A stretch of 20,807 nt of DNA from a virus: positions 1-20,807 of IMG/VR virus record IMGVR_UViG_3300028025_004346. The stretch is one strand, 5' to 3'. Both the position numbers and the translations under genes were made by a program. Below, piece after piece: positions 13,897 through 18,805 of this stretch; the first letter of the stretch is position 1, and the number at the start of each line of letters is the position of its first letter. The notes under the pieces are model-generated. The model did no database searches and was not told the DNA's origin. It saw nothing but the letters and a program-made list of their open reading frames with translations.

Positions 13897-14505
13897 ATGG
13901 AAAACATCAAGAACTTGGCGAAAGCTTTGGTTAAAGCAACCGCCCAAATCGAAGGAGCTTCTAAGGACAGCACCAATCCTCACTTCCGCAACAAGTACGC
14001 CGATCTTGCGAGCGTTACGGATGCGATCAAAAAGCCGTTAAACGATCACGGTTTAACGTACTCGCAAATCATTCACCGCTTAGATGGAGGTGTTGGCGTA
14101 GAAACGCTTATCATTCATGAGTCGGGTGAAACTATGAGCAACGGTATTACGTTCGTTCCAGCGCCTAAAAACGACCCACACGGGTACGGTAGTGCGTTGA
14201 CCTATGCTCGCCGTTATTCCCTTTCTGCTTGCTTCGGAGTTATCCAAGAAGACGATGACGCGAACGGTGCAACTAATAAGTTACCAACGCAAGTGCCTAA
14301 CAAGCCCATCACCAAACCAAGTGCACCACAAACCAAGCAAGCCCAGGTTAAGGAATTACAGCCATTCACCGAGGAAAAGTATTTGAAGCTTGTAGAACTT
14401 CACGAAACCGATCCTACCCTATTGGAAAAAACGTGTGAGTACTACCGGATTACCCAAGAATGGAAGGAACGTTTTTACAAGGACACTAACAAGATTTGGA
14501 AATGA
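13897..14505 (+). CDS. erf: ERF-family single-strand annealing recombinase
   Basis: A 202-aa protein with the clear ERF pattern: 'NPHFRNKYADLASV' at residues 27-40, a beta-rich middle ('GVGVETLIIHESGETMSNG'), and 'GYGSALTYARRYSLSACFGV' at 96-115 followed by 'EDDDANGA'. ERF proteins bind single-stranded DNA and anneal complementary strands in phage recombination and genome circularisation. The C-terminal third (about 127-202) is a Pro/Lys/Gln linker and a short helical part. Transcribed from its own early promoter with a leader of about 18 nt. It heads an operon that includes HTH and HNH proteins. Confidence 0.93.
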   Translation: MENIKNLAKALVKATAQIEGASKDSTNPHFRNKYADLASVTDAIKKPLNDHGLTYSQIIHRLDGGVGVETLIIHESGETMSNGITFVPAPKNDPHGYGSALTYARRYSLSACFGVIQEDDDANGATNKLPTQVPNKPITKPSAPQTKQAQVKELQPFTEEKYLKLVELHETDPTLLEKTCEYYRITQEWKERFYKDTNKIWK

Positions 14506-17106: not shown

Positions 17107-17143
17107 ACGTGACAATTACTTGATAAAATTTGTCACGTTTTTT
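17107..17143 (+). terminator. Intrinsic terminator of the ERF operon
   Basis: ACGTGACAA (17107-17115) pairs with TTGTCACGT (17130-17138) across a 14-nt loop, with a T run to 17143. It lies 12 nt after the stop at 17095. The nine-base perfect arms could also be a protein-binding palindrome. Confidence 0.75.
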
Positions 17144-17167: not shown

Positions 17168-17175
17168 TACCTTTG
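17168..17175 (+). promoter_or_regulatory. -7 element of replication gene promoter
   Basis: TACCTTTG fits TAnnTTTG and equals the -7 box at 18835. No TTTG occurs at the expected -33 position (about 17145); a T run there may substitute. Expected transcription start is near 17179. Confidence 0.5.
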
Positions 17176-17189
17176 TTGAAGTAAAAAAA

Positions 17190-17276
17190 GCGATTTAGCG
17201 GAATCGCCTTGAATAAAAACCTAATAACCCTGCCTTGGACGTGTACCGCTATACACCCCTCGGTGGGGTTTATTTT
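17190..17276 (+). promoter_or_regulatory. Structured leader of replication gene, possible attenuator
   Basis: Two hairpins lie between the promoter and ATG 17281. The first is GCGATT (17190-17195)/AATCGC (17202-17207). The second is ACCCC (17255-17259)/GGGGT (17265-17269), followed by TTATTTTT. The second resembles a weak terminator placed 4-5 nt before the start codon, so it could attenuate transcription or hide the ribosome site. The leader would be about 100 nt, much longer than the other leaders here (about 15-18 nt). Confidence 0.45.
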
Positions 17277-17280
17277 TACC

Positions 17281-18033
17281 ATGAACCTAATCGATTACAA
17301 CTTCAAGCTAAATGCGATCATTAAGGATGGCTATCTGACCACCAATGAGATTGCGTTGATGTTTGTTATTATCAACTTACAAAACACGCTTAGAACGGAA
17401 ATGTTTGGGTTACCAACTCGAACCACCTCGGCGCATCTTAACCTATCCATGCCTACATACTACCGTACCTTGGAAGGTTTGGAATCGAAGGGATTGGTAC
17501 AAATAATTGAGCCTGGGAAGAAGAACCAAGCACCGACAATTCGTATCATATTCGATAAAAAATTTTTAGCGAATACGTGCACTATTGAAGAATCATTCTC
17601 ACATTCGATAAAAGAAAATGAACAAATGCTATTAAAAAATTTTAGCGAATCCGTGCACATAAATAAGAAAGAAGAAAGAATAAGGAAGAAAGAATTACTT
17701 ACTAATAATAATAAGAGCAAAATTGAACCTTTTGGAACACCCGAAAAAAGCATCGAACAGCTGTGGGATTCCTTCATGGACCAGGTCAATTCCCGGATGC
17801 ATATCTTCCACTCCAACTTCCAACTATCGGAAGAAAAAGTTTTGGAACGATGCGAGAATTTTAAGAACTTTGGACTGCTGAAAGGAAACACTTACACCAA
17901 CCAATACAAAATGTTCGACCACTTCATCCACTGGAACAACAAGCAAGTGGAACGACCCAAAAAGAAACACGATGCAAACAGCATGACCGCCGATGAAATA
18001 GCGGAATTTGTAGCAAGCAAAATCATTAAATAA
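17281..18033 (+). CDS. Winged-helix replication initiator candidate
   Basis: A 250-aa protein from ATG 17281. A TTG at 17209 would extend the frame, but that would translate across the leader hairpin and give an odd N-terminus. Residues about 15-90 look like a winged helix of the replication initiator or MarR type ('GYLTTNEIALMFVIINLQ', 'TTSAHLNLSMPTYYRTLEGLESKGLVQII'). A charged, low-complexity middle (about 95-155) follows, then a helical C-terminus ('QLWDSFMDQVNSRM', 'MFDHFIHWNNK') ending with 'MTADEIAEFVASKIIK'. The coding DNA of the middle holds direct repeats in different frames (see origin), as in lambda-type O genes whose origin lies inside the gene. It probably binds those repeats; this is inferred, not shown. 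Confidence 0.7.
   Translation: MNLIDYNFKLNAIIKDGYLTTNEIALMFVIINLQNTLRTEMFGLPTRTTSAHLNLSMPTYYRTLEGLESKGLVQIIEPGKKNQAPTIRIIFDKKFLANTCTIEESFSHSIKENEQMLLKNFSESVHINKKEERIRKKELLTNNNKSKIEPFGTPEKSIEQLWDSFMDQVNSRMHIFHSNFQLSEEKVLERCENFKNFGLLKGNTYTNQYKMFDHFIHWNNKQVERPKKKHDANSMTADEIAEFVASKIIK
17550..17715 (+). other. Candidate replication origin inside the initiator gene
   Basis: Two near-identical repeats lie at 17557-17582 and 17634-17658: six A, four or five T, then AGCGAAT, A or C, CGTGCAC. A second pair, ATTCGATAAAA, lies at 17550-17560 and 17603-17613. Both pairs are read in different codon frames, so protein sequence does not explain them. Between the copies is a palindrome AGAAT-C-ATTCT (17589-17599). 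An A/purine-rich stretch (about 17659-17715) follows, which could be the unwinding element. The layout matches a lambda-like origin within an O-type gene. Confidence 0.6.
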
Positions 18034-18040
18034 ACCAAAT

Positions 18041-18805
18041 ATGACTATCAAGCAAATGGAAAAAAAAGATGCTATCAAGTATCTAACCAATCAACTCCTA
18101 AACCTTTACTCCTACTTTGGAAACAATGTCGGTGTTGATGACAATCTAATTCGCCAGGTGACCACCCTTCAAGAAGACCTCGAAGTGTATCACTCACTCA
18201 CAACCGAGCAATTTGAAGAAGCTTTGAAGTTCGGACGTAGAAACTCAAGCGATTCATTCAAGCCTTCAATCCGGTTAATCATTCAATGGGTTTCCCAGTA
18301 CATGGTCCGTTTCAACAAATCAAACCACACCATTCACCAACTACCCGCAGTTCAAACCGACCAAAAGAAATACGACATCAAATACCCAATGTCACAGCGC
18401 AAAGCATGGATCGTTTCTTCCTACCGGCAATACCACGAAAACAACTGCGACATGGCCAAGTTCTTTGACTTTGGTGGGGTAACGTACGAAGCAATCTACA
18501 AACACCACAGCTACGGTCTAACCAAAGAGCAAAAGGATTACTGCTTCGAAATGGCAAAGCGGTTGAACTTAACGATCATGCTTGGTTCCCTGGTGAATCG
18601 TGGCGGTGACCAAAGCGACTTCCGGAACAATGCCAGTGCGTGCGCCTATGCTTGCAAACTATTCTTCGACCAATTCAAAACCGAATCGGAATTGAGAACG
18701 GAATTGATGTACCATGAACCGGTAAACAAAGATCACTTCGTTGCAGCTTACGAAAAGACCCCACTCCTGGTGAACTATTTTGAAAAAAGAAACCAACCCT
18801 TTTAA
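18041..18805 (+). CDS. Hypothetical replication-region protein
   Basis: A 254-aa soluble protein that starts 7 nt after the initiator stop; ATG 18041 follows an A-rich leader, with 18056 as an alternative. It is helical with many Tyr, Phe and His: 'DAIKYLTNQLLNLYSYFG' at the N-terminus, 'PSIRLIIQWVSQYM' near 75-90, and a C-terminal part 'MAKRLNLTIMLGSLVN', 'CAYACKLFFDQFK'. No Walker A, DnaB, DnaC or primase motif is seen, so a helicase or loader cannot be claimed. Its position right after the initiator suggests a role at the origin, for instance as a partner protein, but this is only context. Confidence 0.7.
   Translation: MTIKQMEKKDAIKYLTNQLLNLYSYFGNNVGVDDNLIRQVTTLQEDLEVYHSLTTEQFEEALKFGRRNSSDSFKPSIRLIIQWVSQYMVRFNKSNHTIHQLPAVQTDQKKYDIKYPMSQRKAWIVSSYRQYHENNCDMAKFFDFGGVTYEAIYKHHSYGLTKEQKDYCFEMAKRLNLTIMLGSLVNRGGDQSDFRNNASACAYACKLFFDQFKTESELRTELMYHEPVNKDHFVAAYEKTPLLVNYFEKRNQPF

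Follow-up and report, generated by a model that had tools for sequence, protein, structure and literature searches.

Four alternating repeats inside an initiator gene mark a candidate replication origin in a phage group that probably infects Bacteroidota

The window analysed here, by which we mean the whole stretch of 20,807 nucleotides from IMG/VR record IMGVR_UViG_3300028025_004346, carries a cluster of short repeats inside the coding sequence of a putative replication initiator gene, and the question raised by this locus is whether those repeats are a replication origin nested in the gene for the protein that would act on it. An earlier note on this DNA had proposed as much, adding that such an origin and initiator pair seemed undescribed in a Bacteroidota phage. 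To our knowledge, origins and initiators of Bacteroidota phages have hardly been described, and our literature searches found no Bacteroidota phage origin or initiator with this layout. From comparisons of related sequences, we consider it very probable that an origin lies in 17550-17700, within the linker-coding part of the initiator gene, and that the initiator and the product of the adjacent partner gene would act there in the manner outlined below. Coordinates of the features are collected in Table 1.

Table 1. Coordinates of the proposed replication module in the window
Feature	Position	Strand	Remarks
Promoter box TACCTTTG	17168..17175	+	matches Bacteroidota -7 element TAnnTTTG
Replication-operon leader, ~105 nt, up to ATG	17176..17283	+	two hairpins with complementary loops
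Leader hairpin 1	17190-17207	+	loop TAGCGG, 17196-17201
Leader hairpin 2	17228-17268	+	loop CCGCTA, 17246-17251
Replication initiator gene (putative), 250 aa	17281..18033	+	ATG conserved in full-length relatives
Site 1	17550..17560	-	TTTTATCGAAT on minus strand; invariant across 15 distinct ori regions
Site 2	17564..17574	+	TTTTAGCGAAT, then ACGTGCAC; near-palindrome with site 1; invariant across 15 distinct ori regions
Site 3	17603..17613	-	TTTTATCGAAT on minus strand; one base changed in clade B; 10/11 columns invariant
Site 4	17640..17650	+	TTTTAGCGAAT, then CCGTGCAC; 10/11 columns invariant; 76 nt from site 2
Purine-rich, strand-asymmetric AT tract, candidate unwinding element	17659..17694	+	directly after repeats
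Exchangeable C-terminal domain and tail (MTADEIAEFVASKIIK)	17752..18030	+	three C-terminal types in relatives
Partner gene, 254 aa	18041..18805	+	predicted all-helical; after initiator in relatives

Direct reading of the letters recovered both copies of the long repeat described in that note. Copy 1 consists of A6 at 17557-17562, T5 at 17563-17567, AGCGAAT at 17568-17574 and ACGTGCAC up to 17582, and copy 2 of A6 at 17634-17639, T4 at 17640-17643, AGCGAAT at 17644-17650 and CCGTGCAC up to 17658; the distance is 77 nt between the A-runs, as claimed, and 76 between the cores. A second pair, ATTCGATAAAA, is likewise present at 17550 and 17603. What had been taken for two pairs, however, is one single motif, ATTCGATAAAA being TTTTATCGAAT read on the other strand: the 11-bp sequence TTTTAKCGAAT occurs four times in the order minus, plus, minus, plus (17550-, 17564+, 17603-, 17640+), with MCGT directly after the core in the plus sites. 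The 25-mer originally described is a genuine repeat, but its GTGCAC end is not kept in relatives. Similarly, the palindrome placed between the copies exists as a small one, AGAATCATTCT, but the main palindrome is formed by sites 1 and 2 (17550-17574). The A- and purine-rich stretch reported 3' of the copies is also there, at 17659-17694.

The repeats are real, beyond chance and beyond protein coding. At a score of 19 and a distance of 76, they are the strongest short-range direct repeat of the 20.8-kb window, where 60 dinucleotide shuffles of the whole window gave a maximum of 15. TTTTAKCGAAT has no copy elsewhere in the window, and a 15-base pattern with two mismatches allowed finds one further place. 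That the copies are read in different codon phases, as the note had pointed out, was borne out by their offsets from the ATG at 17281 (269, 283, 322 and 359; phases 2, 1, 1 and 2), and thus they are not a protein repeat. The accompanying claim that selection on the protein cannot account for them agrees with synonymous-codon shuffles of the gene, none of 2000 of which reached the repeat score (maximum 14); four motif copies were seen in none of 5000 (maximum 2).

Conservation among relatives gave the comparative test. IMG/VR yielded 24 relatives of the initiator gene, one ending before the repeats, and all 23 that cover the region carry the sites in matching positions and at matching intervals, 76 nt from site 2 to site 4 in each. 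The finding that was to count against an origin, relatives that keep this DNA-binding domain and lack the repeats, did not turn up among those covering the region. Conservation is uneven along the region: the spacer at 17583-17602 keeps 6 of 20 columns across the 15 distinct ori regions, and identity between clades is 53% at 17581-17610 versus 89-98% at 17551-17580 and 17611-17640. With 24 of 26 columns kept, the stretch between sites 3 and 4 is also well conserved, and the functional element may extend beyond the motif. Roughly half of the distinct relatives have TTTTATCGAAT at site 4, a variation that changes Ser to Ile and still matches the motif, and L023 has one further change at its second site, just outside the core. 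In clade B loci (L024, L010 and others) the position of window 17590-17603 is held by a different palindrome-like spacer, ATTCGAAACGAAT in most, which is built of the motif half CGAAT where the window has AGAATCATTCT and perhaps supplies extra half-sites.

As DNA, the repeats are thus kept in a gene that otherwise varies, which is the outcome the note had looked for in an alignment with homologues. Counting degenerate codons only, with the residue identical in all sequences, 24 of 27 codons in the repeat region are synonymously frozen versus 17 of 67 upstream (Fisher p=1.4e-8), and the C-terminus of the protein changes among relatives while the sites stay in place. Furthermore, an exact scan for the palindrome in 2.9 million viral contigs returned 23 stretches, all in contigs of this gene family. 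At the comparative-sequence level, then, the reading of an origin within the replication gene is supported. The adjoining tract adds to the picture: no 30-mer of the window is richer in purines than 17665-17694 (29/30), and 17658-17717 is the 60-mer with the lowest duplex stability in it. This tract is conserved among type I relatives, that is, those with the window's kind of N-terminus, as an island in the DNA alignment like the sites.

Searches through the downstream gene uncovered a second kind of locus, type II, with an unrelated N-terminus (MTGYEIDN...) and the same C-terminal domains and partners. The seven intact type II loci have no type I site; at the same linker position they carry 4-6 GATGTTAA units and an inverted TTAACA, followed 3' by a similar purine-rich tract. 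The GATGTTAA units have a 12-bp period, equal to four codons, so that, by itself, the type II array might pass for a protein repeat. Since a different N-terminal domain comes with a different repeat array, DNA-binding domain and repeats swap together. Searches with the three C-terminal modules and the partner as queries returned types I and II and no third N-terminal type. One contig, IMGVR_UViG_3300042868_005071 (41149 bp; L014, L092), has type I and type II initiators about 30 kb apart, each with its own partner, and is either a chimera assembled from two related phages or the DNA of one phage that has two origins.

A second exchange involves the other end of the protein. Over 19 loci, partner distance is uncorrelated with N-terminal distance (Mantel r=0.10, n.s., 468/5000 permutations), correlated with distance in the C-terminal domain (r=0.63, 0/5000) and most closely with distance in the tail (r=0.89, 0/5000), to which physical neighbourhood may contribute; tail type equals partner type in 19/19. 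Crossovers lie immediately before the tail in L009 and three type II loci, and L022 joins a clade B head to another C-terminus by a swap directly after the repeat block. The analysis thus shows two joint exchanges, of the DNA-binding domain with the repeat type and of the tail with the partner type.

The initiator is predicted to comprise a winged-helix N-terminus (about residues 1-99), the linker that carries the candidate origin, a helical C-terminal domain and a C-terminal tail helix. Pfam TrmB/HTH families match the N-terminus in 15 of 15 sequences, weakly and below cut-off, and fold comparison matches winged helices with Z up to 7.8, a common-fold level reached with a low-confidence model (mean pLDDT 58). 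No replication family matched the window's N-terminal domain above cut-off, and a sequence search of solved structures gave chance-like matches only. DUF7833 was considered for the C-terminal domain and dropped (E 0.03-0.26), the record-level search having failed to confirm it.

For the partner we propose the role of a helicase loader, comparable to that of lambda P. Comparison with P by hhalign gave a non-significant E=0.13 over a 31-residue local alignment around FKPSIRLIIQW / FLPSPGQFVAW; this alignment, centred on F-PS, is suggestive as the sole hint of identity and is no evidence of homology. Neither the lambda P family PF06992 nor the G39P helicase loader family PF11417 matched the partner in any of six records (0/6 each). 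A structure model of the partner was too poor (pLDDT 49) for its fold matches to have meaning. At L092:4216-5004 and in L017, a gene that by eye resembles the PAPS-reductase type is inserted between initiator and partner.

In the mechanism we favour, the winged-helix N-terminus of the initiator would bind the four alternating TTTTAKCGAAT sites, and the resulting complex would strain and open the adjoining purine-rich AT tract. The C-terminal domain and tail would then hold the product of 18041-18805, which would deliver the host replicative helicase; binding, melting, helicase loading and the start of replication would thereby all fall at 17550-17700. A host helicase is proposed because none of the window proteins scanned was recognised as a helicase, primase or polymerase. 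The recombination genes in the window are ERF, HNH and DUF1064/Holliday junction resolvase-like. GC skew, which the note had suggested as a check, gave no clear origin signal, being positive nearly throughout with a local dip across the replication genes. A type II relative, G004 (L148, L149), has a 123-bp direct terminal repeat and measures 28541 bp after its removal; the repeat indicates a probably complete, circularly assembled genome, which gives the genome size of the group. Its detrended skew extremes lie at 15.6 and 25.2 kb and its candidate origin at 22.2 kb.

The DNA upstream of the gene may encode a new structured RNA that controls the replication operon. The promoter box fits TAnnTTTG, the -7 promoter consensus of Bacteroidota (PMC6847099), and almost every relative with a gene-adjacent leader, type I or type II, has it at -108 to -114; a -33 TTTG at the usual spacing from TACCTTTG is absent. 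The leader occurs in two sequence forms, a (the window's) and b, which are exchanged independently of initiator type. In form a, 22 pairs are 100% kept, 4 of them with double changes; in form b, 25/25 pairs are kept in 8/8 distinct sequences, 12 with double changes, and 4 of the 7 loop-loop pairs of the kissing helix are changed on both sides. Shifting the partner strand of form b by 1-3 columns lowered pairing to 28-51%. Folding z values are -3.0, -4.7 and -3.6. Each form's model detects the other (E 0.001-0.05 and 1e-4 to 0.005), so that the two probably constitute one class, for which Rfam gave no match.

In the scanned records the leader is found upstream of the replication operon only. 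In L008 and L018 it lies about 1 kb upstream, separated from the initiator by a further gene, and it is therefore an operon leader; by eye, the end of that gene (L008:2115-3113, L018:4006-5001) looks like a cytosine methyltransferase. Together with the U-rich tail UUUAUUUUU, hairpin 2 resembles an intrinsic terminator, so that initiator synthesis could be controlled either by attenuation or at the level of translation. Further upstream, before the promoter, 17110-17141 holds a terminator-like inverted repeat, GTGACAA...TTTGTCAC followed by TTTTTT, which is also found in L003, L098 and L101.

Could the sites serve something other than replication? As an autoregulatory operator, they would let the winged-helix protein block transcription elongation in its own gene or regulate the operon with no start of replication, an explanation with some appeal in that the N-terminal domain is like those of many transcription regulators (TrmB, LexA and MarR-type winged helices) and that autoregulation is conceivable as a second role of an initiator. 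The motif, however, is absent near the promoter at 17168 and elsewhere in the window, and a position about 270-370 nt into the gene, beside a purine-rich tract, suits an origin better, as do a C-terminal domain open to exchange and a partner gene that co-segregates; we regard an operator as improbable.

Still less probable, in our estimate, is that the block is a crossover point for C-terminal swaps, kept uniform by gene conversion. Swaps directly after the block do happen, as L022 attests, and an ERF annealing protein/recombinase is encoded at 13897; yet the positions conserved between clades cluster on the sites, with a divergent spacer in between, rather than forming a single tract, recombination at this boundary also occurs in type II phages, which lack the type I sequence, and four motif copies in two orientations would be left unexplained. 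An element of mRNA structure, or a chance by-product of an AT-rich, lysine-rich linker, could draw on the preference of lysine, glutamate and asparagine codons for A-runs and on a palindrome able to form a hairpin, but RNA folding of the repeat region is unremarkable (z -1.7) and codon shuffles never reproduced the repeats, which makes this the least credible of the alternatives. An origin within the initiator gene stays the preferred reading.

The phage group probably has Bacteroidota hosts, since the TAnnTTTG box and the portal protein, whose nearest match is Nonlabens phage P12024S (28% identity), both point there. No relative of initiator or partner turned up in the species genome collection, which therefore gave neither a prophage nor the name of a host. 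The relatives belong to a single narrow group of phages, and the collection of cultured phages searched contained nothing related to the initiator, type I or type II, or to the partner. A candidate origin, a putative initiator and a probable loader can now be named for phages of which no cultured member is known. We lean slightly towards a broader reading, with chances a little better than even, in which an origin inside the initiator gene, exchangeable cassettes (DNA-binding domain with matching repeats, C-terminal tail with loader) and an operon whose undescribed two-hairpin kissing leader gates initiator synthesis make up a module unknown from cultured phages. The type I and type II repeat cassettes are natural material for swaps of recognition specificity, and the whole module is less than 2 kb long.

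Among known systems, the O-like replication-initiation families PHROGs 270, 4221, 8102 and 678 are weakly matched by type II N-termini (E 0.0015-0.009), whereas the window's type I domain matches none. In single-record searches phrog_678 gave nothing and phrog_270 reached E 1.1e-5, a match that is unspecific because it appears in all 14 control genomes as well. Iteron plasmids with winged-helix Rep proteins share a predicted winged-helix initiator and repeated sites beside an AT-rich element, and the plasmid initiators 4pt7 and 5kbj match the fold (Z 5.9 and 5.6) no better than other winged helices do; the present locus differs in its intragenic sites, its separate partner gene and the lack of a plasmid Rep Pfam match.

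The closest parallel is the ori/O/P layout of lambda, which this locus matches (PMC4488673, PMC7466680). As in lambda, phi80, 82 and the Stx phages, putative binding sites lie in the initiator gene 3' of the codons for the DNA-binding domain, followed by an AT-rich, strand-asymmetric tract and, directly downstream of the gene, by the partner; the DNA-binding half is matched to the origin and the C-terminal part to the partner. The lambda iterons, four in number, measure 18-19 bp and are spaced at 20-24 bp (annotated coordinates), whereas here four 11-bp cores alternate in orientation and two of them abut. The comparison with lambda drawn in the earlier note holds for layout and logic but not for ancestry, as no O or P homology was detected (for the initiator, no Pfam O-family match at E<=0.1 and hhalign E=0.43 against lambda O); the locus would therefore work like the lambda ori and is not placed in the O/P family. 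An origin nested in an initiator gene is itself of a known kind. A lambda-like layout without detectable homology suggests that such nesting may evolve more than once, perhaps because a protein and its DNA target then stay together when phages recombine.
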